DNA of 64,000 nucleotides from Tubiluchus corallicola. Its lineage: Eukaryota > Priapulida > Priapulimorpha > Priapulimorphida > Tubiluchidae. A model generated the notes under the pieces. It was not told the DNA's origin. It searched no databases and worked only from the letters and a program-made list of their open reading frames with translations. The translations under genes and the position numbers were made by a program. How positions within the stretch are numbered: the stretch's first letter is position 1; every line of letters begins with the position of its first letter. This document shows positions 49,333-58,400 of this stretch, piece by piece. The stretch spans positions 124,001-188,000 of the forward strand of contig JAQGDQ010000276.1 of NCBI GenBank assembly GCA_030141605.1, read 5' to 3'.

Positions 49333-50716
49333 CTGAAATAAAACAAAGTATCAACAGATTATAGATGCTATTATTTAAATTTCTAATAGCTTGGCTACAC
49401 CAAATCATCTCTGCAGAATAATCTATCATAAGCTTTAGCCTGTTTAATTCCAGAAGTTACACCAGCCAAATAAATCACCAAACAGTAAAACTTATTAAAA
49501 ATAGTTGATACAGTACCTAGACTAATATAAACGCACAATTTTAAATACAATTGACTAAATATGAACTGCGTCGAAATCCTACTAAACTTAAACTGCACCG
49601 AAAAGCTATTAGCTGAAAAAATACTAATTTAATGAATAGTATCTTGCTAGGCATAAAAGTGTAACAGTTTGTTTAGTAGATCACATATTTTACGTATTTT
49701 CTAGCTCCTAGCTTCTGATTAATCACATTTACTTCGGTTCATTTTGAACTGACCACTTGGCGTAAACCTATTCTGAGTATGCTGAATTATGATTTTTTTT
49801 TCTAGTATGCTAGTCTTCATCCAGTTTTTATACAGACACACTATAGAACCTGTTTGTCCAAGCATAAAAATGGTAAACAAACTCTCTTTAGCTAAAAAAA
49901 TGCTTTAGACAATTATTTAGTGAAAGCTTCAAAGATCTCAGTTGGAAACCTAAAGCTTCTTTCGATGAAACTGTCATGAAACAGATAAATTCCGAGTTTC
50001 TTTACCAGTGTTTGCGTGTAAAGTTCTCAGTTTTTTCCTTCAATTAAAGATTGTTGGCATTGAGGTTTTGTCTCGAGAAATTTAAAGTATTTATGGCTTT
50101 CGAAGTGACTTGATCAACATGTCTGTTCCAGCAGAGGTAATTTGAGATATACATACAGTAAGCCAAGATATACAACAGTATACACACACATGCTTCAGCT
50201 TTAGTAAATAGGGTGTCAATAACTGAATGGATGGTTTTACAAAATATTTAATTATCATAATTTCACACTTGGTAAGATTTAAATATATTAAACTTCATCA
50301 AGCATCATCCATTTAGATCATTCTCACGGAAGAATCATCAGATTACTACTGCCAGTACCAGATTAAAACTGAAAATTCAACAAAACCAAAATTAATGGGC
50401 AATCGATTTAGACAACTTTAAGTTCATTGGCCACAGTTTTACTATTGGGTGCTAATTCACTTCCTAACGCTATTAATTAAAAATTATTTATTATTAATTT
50501 TAAACGAAGTTAAAGTTACCAGTTAGTTACACTTACAAAGGTACAAATTACAGCAGTTTTTCAAAATCTCACATCATTTTAGCGAAATGAACTTGGCGAG
50601 TCCCAATATCAATTCCCAAATATAGTAAAAATTAATACAAAATTATTATTAAAAACTAATTTTTATCTATGCACCTACTAAGCTACTAACCACTAGTAGC
50701 CACTAACCAACCAGTT
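49333..50716. other. GTF2F1 upstream region, nothing assigned
   Basis: Should contain the GTF2F1 promoter and any 5' non-coding exon, but no TATA-like or other core element stands out in the AT-rich sequence. No coding exon supported. Confidence 0.4.
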
Positions 50717-51529
50717 TGTAGGGCGCCGAGTTATCCACTAGCCGAAGAAGGACACTTCCGGCAAAACGCATGTGCCAAATTTGGGTAAAAGCAGTGTCGT
50801 ACATGGGCAGCCCAAGCAGGACATTAGGGATTTCTGTCGAGAATCGAGATTTATGACATACTAAAACATAAAAGTAAATTCGTTTTTAGAAAAAAAGTAA
50901 CTTTATAATAATGATGGGTAGTCCTTCACAATTCACATATGTATTTTTGCAACAATATCATCATTATTATTAGCTCCATCAACATCAGCATAACATTAAA
51001 CTAAGTATCTATTGCTTTAAAGAGAGAAACTATGTAGGACACATGACTCGCTAACCCGTTTATTTAGTAGAAAACAATTATTTGTCCAAGAGGGAGTGAA
51101 AGGGATCACCTGTCTGTAAAGCAAGACAAAATAAAAAATGCTATACCTTAAACAAATGTTGGAATCGCCTAAAAAGTGCACTTATTTCACTTCAAAGAAG
51201 ATTAATATTGGCAAATATTAATTCTTCTAGCTCAGAATAAAATTCTTTTATTTTATCAGATGTATAATAACTTATTCAACGTATATTGACGTTTTTAATT
51301 ATTATTATTCCATAAACAAGGACAACGGACGGTGCCACTACGCTTAACGAATCAGTTCGCCCGCTTCTAGTGTCCTACTTGGGCAGCGAATTTACGACGC
51401 GTTCTACTTGAGCTAGCCTATGTACGACGCGTCCTACCTGGGCTAGCCCATGTACGGCGCGTCTTACTTGGGCTAGCCCATGTACGTCAATTGTCCTATT
51501 TTGGCTAATGGATTACTCGGCGCCCAACA
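50717..51529. mobile_element. TGTWGGG inverted-repeat element, copy 1 (813 bp)
   Basis: The left end TGTAGGGCGCCGAGTTATCC and the right end on the other strand TGTTGGGCGCCGAGTAATCC are inverted repeats of about 30 bp with a few mismatches. The flanks are cagtt (50712-50716) and cagtt (51530-51534), a perfect 5-bp duplication. The interior is clearly homologous, in the same orientation, to 54446-55359, including the stretch after CAATTATTTGTCCAAGAG and the block ending GGACAACGGACGGTG. Three 30-bp direct repeats lie near the right end. No protein-coding frame, so non-autonomous. The superfamily is not assigned: TG..CA ends with a 5-bp duplication recall integrase-type elements, but the long inverted repeats fit a cut-and-paste transposon. 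Confidence 0.75.
51396..51485. repeat. Three 30-bp tandem units inside element copy 1
   Basis: Units at 51396-51425, 51426-51455 and 51456-51485 each begin GRCGCGT and end CCYATGTAC with few substitutions, and each contains a (G)GGCTAGCCC-like palindrome. Subterminal repeats of this kind are often transposase-binding arrays; that role is an inference. Confidence 0.85.
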
Positions 51530-54445
51530 CAGTTAAAACTTGCCACACAAGATAATAAGAAATCTTTGTCTCAATCAATAGTAATGAGCTTATTTCACGT
51601 CTTTTACTTTTTCACATTACGACGTGCCAAATTCTTTGTCCAATGCCTACTGCCTAGTGAGGAGTGGCTGCGTGGTGACAGTGAGCTACCTATGGCTATG
51701 ACGGTTCTCTCAAGTTTTAATTAAAAATAGCACTTTGGTTAATGGTTTATTAACTTTTTGTTTTACTTCTTAATTCTATTAAGTGATTTATAAATTAATT
51801 TAATATGACATCAATTAACACCACACACAAACAAGAAAAAGAGACACACAACTGCAAATCATGCAATCTACATTGCACACGCATACACACTTACACCAAA
51901 GGAAAAGGGTCATCAGGTGAGGCACAGGGAAAGATTAAGATTTCAGTCCACACTCACTGTCTGCAAACTCTACCTGCAGACCCAGTCCCATTTATTGCCC
52001 AGATGTTAAAGTGATAACTACAGACATAATACCAAGCACACACAGAACATCAACATAAACTAACTGCAACAATGGCAAAAAATGAGAAGGGGCTCCTACA
52101 GCATGACCACAGAGCGACAAAAGGCTAGACAAATTTCTCGTCACCAAAATCACATCAAGGTAACAGCTGCTTGCCTAATTGAATACAAACCAAACTTAAA
52201 CAAAAAATGACGGTTTTTAAAAATATTTTCACAAGATTGTCGTAGATAACTCTCTATTTGACATAATTTGATACATCCTAGTTGGCCTAACCAAAAACCT
52301 CTCCTTACTTGAACATAACCTGGCATACCTTGACCAGAAAACACATTATAACCTATCTTAAGTGGAATATTGCTAGAAGGAGAAAATACATAACAACAGA
52401 AAAGTTATTTTAATATTTCGTTTAGAACTGAGAAAAAATTAAAAACATATGCCTCCCAAGTCCCAATATCATTAGTCATCATATCGATATCATAATAATT
52501 TTTGTTCTTCCGGGCATACCCGACTGATTTTAATAATTGTTCCATATCATAGCCAGAGCTGTAAATAACTCGAATTTCGGAAAAGAAAGTTTATCTGTGT
52601 ATTCTAAGTAACAAGCCCTCATTCTGTACCTTTTAGGAATTCAATACTATAATTACACAGTTCCCACAAGATTCGCTTAATATGGTAAATGCAATCAAAA
52701 GTAAATATGGCTAGCAGTAGGTGCATGAACTTCAATTTGGTTATCTTATTTTTCAAAACCATTTTGAGAAACATTACATTGGAAAACGTCTAAAGAAATC
52801 TTGGATTCAAGTCCATCAATATAGTGTTAACCAATTAAGAGTCATAGTGACTATTTGATTATGCATAAAAACATGTACCCTGACATGACTGATTAGACAC
52901 TGGTCAGTTACTCAATGGCAGCCAACCAGTAACATAGTTCAGTTTAAACTGTAATTATTCAATAACAAGTGTGGTGAATATCTGTTGAGCCACTGCTGGA
53001 TCAGCATCAACAGCTAATCCATTGCTATCATCATTAAATTTTACTAAGTGATTGAATTATTTGTGACTGGCTGTCATTGCTAACATCAATGCGAGTAACT
53101 ACTTAGCGATTATGGAATCAAGCAGCTTTAACTACTTTGTTAGCTTAATCTATTTGGCTGCAGAGCTGGTGAAATTATTCATTTTTGCTAAATTATCAAT
53201 ATCAGTTACAATGACAATTACAATTAGTCATTTGGATTTATTTACCAATAATGATTAAAATTACAAATAGTTATTTCCGAGATATTGTCAAGCCCAATTC
53301 CAATTACTATTAATTACATTCAGAACACTGCAATTGCTATTATTTATAAAGGCAACTTAATTTTTTAAGAACTGTTAATTTGTGCACCTCAGTTTTGACA
53401 ATTATAGTTATTATTATTAGTGCCAATTTTGTGCAGAAAACATTACCATTCAAATTGCTTATTGTTTTTAGCTAAATTTGAATCCGATTTGACTATATAA
53501 TACAATTGCAACAACAATAATTACAACATTAACAATTACTTTTCACAAAACACCATTACAGTTACAATAACTTGCACAAGGCATTGTCGAAATTAATTTA
53601 CAATTATGTTTCACACAAATTATCGGAATTTTGTAATCATTACAAAATAATAGTGATTAGTCAAAGTAATTTTACCTACTCTAGTGGATGAGTAATTGAA
53701 GCCGAGTATTCTTTCTGATTGACTGGTGTTTTTTTAATAACATTGAGTATGTGAGCGTGTGGTAGTATATTGCACACTTTTAGACATTGTGAATGCTCCA
53801 TGTTTTGTCGTATCTAGTCGATCTGGTCCTACATTGTCGTGTCTTGTCTTGTCCTGACCTGTTCTGTTCAATCCTGTCCTGTCCTGTCTTGTCCTGTCTT
53901 GTCCTTTCTTTGAGATAGTAGCCACAATACTGCCACAGTGCTGAACTGTGTAGAAATGTGTGGCAGAGTTGCCAAGTTTGGTGGATATGCGTAATATAAT
54001 TATACAGAAACAAGTGTGGCTACGTGGGCAAAAAATAACGGAGTGTGCATGGCGGGTAAGTAAGGGGGTATGGTGTAGGTTTAAGTCACTATTTGTGCTT
54101 AACACATGGAGAGACACCAATGTGGTTGAATCTTGAAATCCTTCAACAATGCAGCAAGTTTCAATAGCAGGGCAATAAAGCTTACCAGGCCCTGTCAACA
54201 GTTGTTGCTTGCAAATTGTCGGTAGAGGTGTTAAATAATACAAAATCACAACAAAAAATGCAAACGCGACCACAGTAACCAATCGTTGACAATCTAGTAG
54301 TAACGTCGTATATCTTAACGAAAATTTAACGGATGCTTGGTAACTTCAGTCGTTTAAGTCTTAAGTAATTGCGAATAGAAAAACCTCCTTAGCGGTGCGC
54401 TTACTAATGTTTTGCTCAACTTTACCGTTTCAAAACAAAACTCCA
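51530..54445. other. Intergenic DNA between the two element copies
   Basis: No coding exon supported. From about 53000 to 53680 the sequence is rich in degenerate AATTAC/CAATTA units and looks like an old low-complexity repeat. A pentanucleotide array follows at 53835-53906. Confidence 0.45.
53835..53906. repeat. TGTCY pentanucleotide array
   Basis: Runs of TGTCT, TGTCC and related pentamers. Being five bases long, the array is read in all frames without stops and creates an artificial open frame rich in RTGQDKT on the minus strand. Confidence 0.85.
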
Positions 54446-55359
54446 TGTTGGGAGCCGTTTGGACCACTGCGCCAAGTAGACCACTTGATGCGCTAAAAGT
54501 AGTGTCCTACATGGGCAGCCCAAGTAGGACACTAGCGATTTTTGTCGAGAAACTTGCTCTGGCAAAACTTGTTTCCAGTTTATATTACCATTGTTTATAA
54601 GTATTGTTATGACATAATAAAGCATAAAACAAAATTTCTTTTAGAAATGGATATTCCTTGGCAATTTACAAATGCATTTCTTACAATAATTTCATCATTA
54701 TGATTAACTCCATTAATATATCATAACATTAAAACTAGTATCTAATGCTTTAAAGAGAGAAATTCTGCACACATTTATTACAGAAATAATTGCAAATTTA
54801 AAAATGAGACAGATGCTGCTAAGCCTTCACAACACCAAAAAGTAATTTTTGACATTTAAGAAAAGCAAGGATAATTAGTTTTAATATTATCAGTAGTATT
54901 GTAACATGTAGGGCACTGTCCTACATGGCTCGCTAGCCCATGTAGGACACATAGATCGCTAGAACGTTTACTTATAAGAAAACAATTATTTGCCCAAGAG
55001 GTAGTGAAACGGATCACCTGTTTGTGAAGTGAGACAAAATCAAAAATGATATACCTTAAACAAATGTTGAATTCGCAAAAAAGTGGGGTTTTTTCACTTC
55101 AACAACATTAATATCGAAACCTAATTTAATATTGTCCCTTCTACCAGCTCAGAATAAAATTCTTTTATTTTATTAGATGTATAATAAATTATTCAACGTG
55201 TATTAACGTTTTTAATTATTATTATTACATAAACAAGCACAACGGACGGTGTCAGTACACTTAACGACTGAATTCACGACCTGTCTCTAGTGTCCTACTT
55301 GGGCAGCCCAAGTAGACCAATTGGTCTACTTGACGCAGTGGTCCAAACGGCTCCCAACA
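54446..55359. mobile_element. TGTWGGG inverted-repeat element, copy 2 (914 bp)
   Basis: Inverted ends of about 38 bp (TGTTGGGAGCCGTTTGGACC at both ends) with one mismatch seen, flanked by ctcca (54441-54445) and cccca (55360-55364), a 5-bp duplication with one change. Interior homologous to 50717-51529. It contains near-perfect palindromes: GTGTCCTAC at 54502 with GTAGGACAC at 54524, and TGTCCTACATGG at 54917 with CCATGTAGGACA at 54938. It ends 140 bp before the PLAA ATG. No coding frame. Confidence 0.8.
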
Positions 55360-55499
55360 CCCCACACTCCACAGGCACGAGGTTTAGGCATGAGATTTTG
55401 AAGACTCACTGTTAGGATAACTGTGTATTATTTGTCTTATTAAATTCTAAACCTAAGTGTAAAACCGAAGAAGCGTTTGAATACAACGATTTTTTGCAG

Positions 55500-58400
55500 A
55501 TGTCGGTGTATAAGCTTCGGTGCTCTTTAGTTGGGCATGAGTCTGATGTTCGTGCTGTGGCCGCTGCGTACTATCCAGATAACGGTATAGTGTCTGCCTC
55601 GAGAGATCGCACTACTCGCGTTTGGGCTACAAATGAGTAAGAATAATGTGAAAATCTTTATTATTAACTTATTAAACGGCCGTGTAATCAGAAATGTAAT
55701 GAACGTTGTTTAGCACATCCCCATATTAAAAAAATAAAGCAAACTAAGGACAAATCACTTGGTAAGCGTGTTGGGTTTATTTTACTGTTATCGCTTCAAA
55801 ATTGTCACGTAACTGGTGGACTTCATGACATTTTCATAAGCACTTTCTGTAAGTGCATGCTGCTTAAACTAATTTAAATTTCTACAGCTTATCAAATGTT
55901 TGTGCAAATATATCAAAATTAGCTACCTGATTTTTGCAAAAACATTATACTTGGACAGAAATTGACAGTGTGCTGTTTTTCTTCAGCAGATTAGGGACAC
56001 CATTGGTGGGAAATAAGCATTCAAAATGGGAGCACCCATGCTCGAAATAATCACGAGTTTAAAATAAAAAATGACTTTACTAATTACACCAGGCACTTAT
56101 TACACTTTTATTACATAATCCTAACAAATCCTTTTCAGAAGCATTGAAATAAGCCTAACTTTCCAGAAGGATTGACCTTTCCTTTAAAGTTTATCAGCAA
56201 AATTTTCATACAGATGCTTTACTCTTCACAAAAGAGTTATTTAACAAAATGTAAGACTTTTCTCACAGAACTGAAAAAGAACTCATGATGATGTGACTTT
56301 AACACTGGTGAGTGAAACATAGGCACTGTAACGGTGTCCAGCTGTCCGTTATCTAAATGTCCACCAACTTGAAATTAGATAAAAGCAGTGTTATATGTAT
56401 ATATAAACACTTCTCTCTGATTGGAATAAAGTACACACTCAGACAAAGTGTTCTGTAGATTCCACTGAACTGTACTCTCAGAATAAGAATTATCAGAGCT
56501 GGAGCTTTGATGGAAAATTTGGAACACTGTTCATACTATGAATTATATAGTGCAAAAGTTTGTTCCAATAAAATGTACAACTACCCGCAATTTTGGAAAT
56601 AAAAAGTACCATTGTGAATTAAATATTACACATATACAAAACAAAATTAGCATCTATGACAAATGAAGCAGCACATGACAAAGACTAGTAAAGTGTATCT
56701 AATAAAAAGTTATGTAGGTTCGATAATGTACCTCATGTAACTTCCCTGATAATAAATGAAAATATCACAGATCATTAATTAACATTTAGTTTACACAATT
56801 CCTTTTGTCCTATAATTAACTATTCACATTAAGTAAGATATAGGACAAGACTTGTGTGTACTAAATGTTAATTAATGATATGAGATATTTGAATTTATTA
56901 TCAGTGTTATGTGATTCAGTGATATAACATTCAATGTGGTAAAATTTGGGGAGTTAAATCAGGTTCATTATAAAACCTATATAACTTTTTATTATATAAA
57001 GGTTACTAGTCTTTGTCATGTGTTGCAGCTGCTGCTTCATTTCTCGCAGATGCTAATTTTGTTTTCTCTGTGTGTAATATTTGGTTTATTTACTATGGTA
57101 AATATTTCAAATTTATAGTTTTATTTCCCATTGCACAAACATTTTATATGTATTTAGTCCACAACATTTCAACTTCATTATCATTAATATATAGCTTACG
57201 TAAAACAATTAAAATGAGTGTGGACAGATAAATCTATAATAACTTCTATGCAAAGGGCCAAAATATTGTTTGGCGGCTTGTTCAGAATTGGTTGTATATG
57301 TAGTCTGTTTAAATATAGTCCTAAAAATTTCTGGTGCTGTTTATCAAAAAAACAAACTAGTGTATTGGTGGTGCCTCAAGGCAATAAACTTACTTACTGT
57401 AATCGATGCCTGCTTTGCTTACTTAATTATAAGGTCATGAAGTAACCTATGTATTGTAAATTGTTCTATCTTTTCTAGTTTTGACAGAGGCTTTACTGAA
57501 TCATTGTGCATGAGTGGGCACACTAACTTCATAGCCTGTATATGCATTTATCCTCCAGACGATAAACACCCACATGGCCTTGTCTTAACAGGCAGCAACG
57601 ACAAATCTATCTGTGCTTTTACATTGGAATCTCCAGAACCTGTATATAAGCTCTTGGGTCACAATGATACAGGTATATATGTCTATGCCAATATGTACAA
57701 ATAATGTATTTAGTTGTGAACGGTGTTTTGTAAATTCGTGTGAATAACCTATGTAGTATGCACACTAAGCAATTTCACTGTTGGGAAACTAACTTCGTTA
57801 AATATAGAAATATAGTAATGGCATTTATCACTTTATTTATCAGATACACCATCTTCATACGAGTACAGCAATTACGATTTGGTTTTCACCAATTAACTAA
57901 CAATTGGCTATATACATTTAATGCATGTAATGAGATACATGCACTTAGTAGCCATTGTTCTTCATGAACATGTCTACATTAAATGCTTGATTATTACATT
58001 AGAAATGGAACCTTTTGTTTCAGCTAAAATTGCCTGAAGTGACTGATCATGAAGTAAATATGTATCAGTTTTAGAGGAACAAAGATAGTGCATTAGATCA
58101 GTAAACCGATGTTTTTGTCACTGCCACTATAATTTTAATTACTTGTAAATAACTAAACATATTTTAGGTAAAGCACCAGTGGCTATTGAATTTTCAGTGT
58201 TATAAGTTCGGTGTTCTTTAACAATCATAATTAAAGTTATGCAAGTTGGCACATGGCTTTTTGTTTTTTGTACAAAACCAATGAGCAGCAATACAAAATA
58301 ATTTATTACATTAAAGTATTGCTCAAACAATAAAGCAACTACCATACCCTTAACGTTACTGTGAAACTCTCATGCATCTCGCACAGCCTGCAATCTTGAA

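Follow-up and report, generated by a model that had tools for sequence, protein, structure and literature searches.

The locus raises two questions: what kind of element are the two inverted-repeat sequences between positions 50,717 and 55,359 of the window (the whole stretch of Tubiluchus corallicola DNA that was analysed, 64,000 nucleotides long), and what type of enzyme moves them? A first description made from the letters alone (the sequence-only reading) had treated them as two copies of one unclassified element with 5-bp duplications and internal palindromes. We conclude that they are, to near certainty, non-autonomous inverted-repeat DNA transposons and that they very probably belong to one genome-wide, MITE-like family, whose enzyme class we leave open. 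The family is real, well delimited and recently spread, and largely ordinary in kind. Direct reading of the window found the coordinates and motifs of the sequence-only reading to be correct, and the two copies and their parts are as follows.

50717..51529, forward strand: copy 1, non-autonomous element of subfamily A (813 bp; the subfamily A consensus has 756 bp)
50712..50716, no strand: left target site duplication of copy 1, CAGTT, identical to 51530-51534
51530..51534, no strand: right target site duplication of copy 1, CAGTT
50717..50757, forward strand: left terminal inverted repeat of copy 1; its half-site, at about position 31 from the end, is degenerate
51489..51529, reverse strand: right terminal inverted repeat of copy 1
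50796..50822, no strand: left subterminal palindrome of copy 1, GTCGTACATGGGCAGCCCAAGCAGGAC
51372..51486, no strand: right subterminal array of copy 1, 3.9 copies of a 30-bp palindromic unit, GTCCTACTTGGGCTAGCCCATGTACGACGC
54446..55359, forward strand: copy 2, non-autonomous element of subfamily B (914 bp; about 99% identity to many genomic copies)
54441..54445, no strand: left target site duplication of copy 2, CTCCA
55360..55364, no strand: right target site duplication of copy 2, CCCCA (4/5 against the left CTCCA)
54446..54487, forward strand: left terminal inverted repeat of copy 2
55318..55359, reverse strand: right terminal inverted repeat of copy 2
54504..54530, no strand: left subterminal palindrome of copy 2, GTCCTACATGGGCAGCCCAAGTAGGAC
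54918..54948, no strand: central palindrome of copy 2, GTCCTACATGGCTCGCTAGCCCATGTAGGAC
55292..55333, no strand: right subterminal palindromes of copy 2, GTCCTACTTGGGCAGCCCAAGTAGACC and the overlapping CCAAGTAGACCAATTGGTCTACTTG

Copy 1 starts with TGTAGGGCGCCGAGT and terminates in ACTCGGCGCCCAACA, with CAGTT at either side; copy 2 has the termini TGTTGGGAGCCGTTTGG (left) and CCAAACGGCTCCCAACA (right), and its start, TGTTGGGAGCCGTTTGGACC, returns as an exact reverse complement at its other end, the flanks being CTCCA and CCCCA. The 5-bp duplication claimed for both copies is therefore perfect in copy 1 and carries one mismatch in copy 2. The terminal inverted repeats of both copies are 38 bp long (41-42 bp counting an inner mismatch) with TGT..ACA ends, the GTCCTAC..GTAGGAC palindromes reported near the ends are present in both, and the common interior aligns at 82% over 370 bp, with two further blocks, one of 117 bp at 82% and one of 58 bp at 90%. 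Because their duplications and their subfamilies differ, copies 1 and 2 are two separate insertions: "two copies of one element" holds for the genome-wide family, yet the copies represent two subfamilies that inserted independently. An empty-site search found no empty allele in the assembly for either site, so it is solely the duplications that point to the window insertions. An Rfam search of the window returned no match. To the right of copy 2 (window 55360-55640), the ATG of a WD40 gene lies about 140 bp downstream of the element's end; the first exon matches PF00400 and by eye resembles phospholipase A2-activating protein (PLAA). Given that short distance, copy 2 may be located in the promoter or 5' leader of this gene.

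The host assembly searched comprises 343.5 Mb. A rough first look by nucleotide search gave 884 candidates for copy 1 and 832 for copy 2 over the whole assembly, in which redundancy inflates copy counts (contigs C1752, C1831, C1974, C2072, C2074 and C2107 carry one locus, with equal flanks and feature spacing); because several contigs repeat one locus, insertions were deduplicated by flank before counting. Exact 20-mer ends occur across the assembly at 156 sites of type A (copy 1), 176 of type B (copy 2) and 101 of type C, against zero sites for the reversed pattern of each, and these counts imply more than 200 intact-ended copies. The type C end, TGTTGGGAGCCGAGTGGACC, mixes A-like and B-like positions; the family comprises at least three end types, namely A, B and the intermediate C. 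Among the pairs listed, paired ends are spaced about 0.3-1.1 kb apart (three longer cases were examined or explained), and elements of the family are 750-945 bp long. At one locus (L057, C1022:207900-212100) several A- and B-type copies lie within 4 kb, some of them nested or fragmentary.

The consensus of subfamily A is 756 bp long (17 copies) and that of subfamily B 914 bp (26 copies), and their two ends match as inverted repeats at 37/38 and 38/38 positions, respectively. The longest stop-to-stop frame is 60 aa in the A consensus and 80 aa in the B consensus, and the family is without coding capacity. It thus shows what marks a non-autonomous (MITE-like) DNA transposon: terminal inverted repeats, a duplication of fixed length in many insertions, and no coding capacity. 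In pairwise comparison the sampled B copies are 99.0% identical to one another and the sampled A copies 91.1%, values narrower than the true divergence because the sample consists of the copies closest to those in the window. Subfamily B is young and recently spread, and subfamily A is older.

Deduplicated by flank, 50 distinct insertions comprise 28 with an exact 5-bp duplication, six with a 5-bp duplication bearing one mismatch, six with an exact 4-bp duplication, one with a 7-bp duplication inside a simple repeat, and nine with none recognisable; random re-pairing of left and right flanks gives a chance expectation, per 50, of 0.12 exact 5-bp and 0.29 exact 4-bp duplications. Tabulating the duplication in other copies, a check proposed in the sequence-only reading, therefore came out mostly in favour of 5 bp. 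At the 27 exact-duplication sites whose flanks are long enough, a purine occupies the third position outward from the duplication in 46/54 half-sites, and C never does; as the two halves of a site are not fully independent, the p value serves as a guide. The target pattern is weak and palindromic, WRW..WYW. A symmetric preference of this kind would be expected of a strand-transfer enzyme acting on paired ends.

Counted inward from either end, position 31 of the consensus sequences holds a half-site, GTAGGAC, which in B reads GTAGACC. The GTAGGAC motif recurs about 60-100 bp inside the ends as inverted pairs (GTCCTAC-ATGGGCAGCCCA-AGTAGGAC and variants), with one additional central pair in subfamily B, and in both consensus sequences the half-sites take mirrored positions at the two element ends. 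Exact GTAGGAC/GTCCTAC half-sites number five per consensus, against about 0.05 expected from dinucleotide shuffles; in copy 1 the right-hand subterminal unit has been expanded into the array listed above. The half-sites and subterminal palindromes are likely candidates for enzyme-binding sites. We hypothesize that the elements are mobilised in trans by a DDE-type transposase making a 5-bp staggered cut. Such an enzyme would bind the half-sites at position 31 of each end and in the subterminal palindromes, pair the element ends, and join the TG..CA ends to staggered target positions, whereupon gap repair would yield the target duplication.

The two subfamilies differ most at their ends, as the sequence-only reading had said of the outer repeats. 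Compared in blocks of 50 columns, the A and B interiors mostly share 75-95% identity (a single block stands at 53%), whereas their 38-bp ends agree at only 25-26 positions (~67%); despite this divergence, the two ends of any one element are nearly alike. This combination of like interiors, unlike ends and matching ends within each element indicates that both ends changed in concert while the interior was retained. One end could have been copied onto the other in gap repair, with subsequent selection for a different enzyme variant. In the CMITE families of Acropora corals, too, MITEs that share a genome have kept their interiors better than their terminal inverted repeats (PMC2872659). CMITEs are about 100 bp long, TTAA-flanked and piggyBac-linked (PMC2872659), whereas elements of the present family measure 750-945 bp and have 5-bp duplications.

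A longer copy with the same ends and a transposase or integrase gene, which the sequence-only reading had proposed to look for, was not found among the exact ends listed: for type B, the pairs listed and the unpaired ends read belong to short elements, apart from a few sites outside the listing, and the first 100 sites listed of A and of C include no autonomous copy. In a search for the integrase (rve) family, none of the 150 scored hits listed lies between paired family ends, and no family ends occur within 1.5 kb of the 30 rve loci read. The hits read as possible partners are bacterial IS-like, Gypsy-like or Polinton-like, and lack the ends. Two of these loci (L099 and L103, on C1626 and C2003) hold an integrase gene that is rich in GC, has a chromodomain-like end and is followed by an open frame; they are Polinton/Maverick-like. 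At others (L063-L074 and L078-L085, on C31, C1700, C1798, C2237 and others) IS3-like transposases adjoin SusD/TonB-like and IS256-like frames, and for this reason some contigs of the assembly look bacterial (Bacteroidota-like), that is, derived from symbionts or contaminants.

A search for the hAT dimerisation domain (PF05699) placed none of the 115 hits listed between paired ends, except one nested hAT on contig C215. The 2.03-kb A copy that carries this fragment was rejected as a partner because the hAT has CAG..CTG ends of its own and a nearly exact 8-bp duplication: it is a 1.2-kb insert inside the A-type copy, at about 192-1379 of L108 (C215:1178880-1180990), with ends CAGTGGCG..CGCCCCTG and a duplication (GCACCCGT/GTACCCGT) matching at 7/8 positions. 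Relatives of this hAT occur elsewhere at 85-93% identity, one of them, at C1143, with a 727-aa open frame. A 7-kb pair of ends at C167 (L107, C167:7380-14450) was likewise rejected as a long transposon; it is an inverted duplication whose 1,983-bp identical arms take in the flanks and include a 48-bp tandem repeat, and it could be either a recent palindrome or an artefact of assembly.

KRBA2-like integrases, which we take to belong to Ginger2, were sought with a 159-aa KRBA2/Ginger2-like sequence used as a search query only. It matched three remnants (C1706:88397, C1456:33122 and C2087:533859) at 51-56% identity to the probe, the last of them inside a 218-aa open frame; the best, at C1706, is decayed and without family ends, and was discarded as a partner. 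A degenerate end pattern matched one sequence in viral_contigs and six in genome_contigs, which is chance level, with an inverted partner in none, and a full-text literature search found no published terminal repeat TGTTGGG.

If the ends and the length of the duplication are taken by themselves, a Ginger2/TDD-like enzyme has a substantial chance, some way below even, a 5-bp hAT of the hAT5 type a small one, and another or undescribed class a chance not far short of even. By these two features Ginger2/TDD fits best. Ginger1 and Ginger2 have TGTNR ends (PMC2836005), as have the family's TGTTG/TGTAG; duplications are 4 bp and of CCGG type in Ginger1, and in Ginger2 4 bp (animals) or 5 bp (TDD-4/5), at RTATAY targets (PMC2836005; PMC10045372). 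Both lengths occur in the present family, 5 bp dominant and 4 bp in the minority; the three Ginger2-like integrase remnants in the genome also speak for this class, and non-autonomous derivatives are known there too, such as Ginger2-1N1_NV, 252 bp long with 52-bp inverted repeats (PMC2836005). By target preference, however, the family does not fit animal Ginger2, since a sole site (L014, GTATAC) agrees with RTATAY. Metazoan Ginger2 families further combine 4-bp duplications with inverted repeats of about 50 bp or longer, one of 45 bp (PMC2836005), against 5 bp and 38-42 bp here. The single remnant read, that at C1706, is without matching ends. An autonomous Ginger2/TDD member encodes an H2C2 plus DDE integrase-type transposase; among the rve hits listed, none lies inside the family's ends. 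That a Ginger2/TDD transposase is the mover, and the elements true Ginger2 members, is a serious possibility that we hold to be somewhat short of probable. Because ends and duplication fit this class and target preference does not, we place the elements as a non-autonomous inverted-repeat DNA transposon family without a superfamily. The integrase-type proposal of the sequence-only reading thus keeps its resemblance of TGTNR ends to integrase-type transposons, but the chemistry it named is conjectural, no partner gene having been found and RTATAY not being preferred.

Transib and ProtoRAG elements, with 5-bp duplications, have CAC-type termini, unlike the family's TGT..ACA. Their group is described with CA..TG ends (PMC12730594), IS3EU/GingerRoot with 6-bp duplications and mostly TA ends, and IS481EU with duplications of about 4, 15 or 25 bp (PMC10045372). 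That the mover belongs to an undescribed superfamily with TGTWGGG ends and 5-bp duplications is unlikely: the full feature set of no known superfamily is found here, and no partner is among the scored integrase or hAT hits, but the search extended to about 150 scored candidates each for two enzyme classes, and to exact ends. Slightly less likely still is an undescribed lineage that would unite TGTWGGG ends, a 5-bp stagger, dimeric GTAGGAC subterminal sites and ends changing in concert around a conserved interior.

hAT transposons typically carry subterminal repeats and have termini of CAG..CTG type. A hAT5-type transposase, that is, a hAT making 5-bp duplications, would agree with the subterminal repeated motifs and with the abundance of hAT genes in the host genome, but not with TGT..ACA ends. 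The hAT5 group does have 5-bp duplications (PMC12730594; PMC9004415), so the equation of hAT with 8 bp is not absolute, although the sequence-only reading was right to set the elements apart from the standard hAT, Tc1/mariner and piggyBac types. An autonomous hAT5 member has Dimer_Tnp_hAT; among the hits listed for this domain, the only one enclosed by family ends is the nested hAT at C215, with its own ends and 8-bp duplication. We consider this mover improbable.

Solo LTRs or short LTR retroelements can be dismissed almost outright, for while LTR elements typically show TG..CA ends and 5-bp duplications, they have a 2-4-bp inverted end and direct LTRs around gag-pol, and the family has hundreds of copies with mirrored half-sites and near-perfect 38-bp inverted ends (the argument already made against a solo LTR), no paired-LTR arrangement or gag-pol body, and no ends within 1.5 kb of the rve loci examined.

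The non-autonomous family described here is a sizeable and recently spread addition whose 5-bp duplication is well measured and which offers clear candidates for enzyme-binding sites. Next to the coral CMITEs, it is a second case in which sister families retain their interior while both ends change together. Were its partner found, one could test whether animals, too, have the TDD-like variant of Ginger2 with 5-bp duplications that is reported from Dictyostelium.
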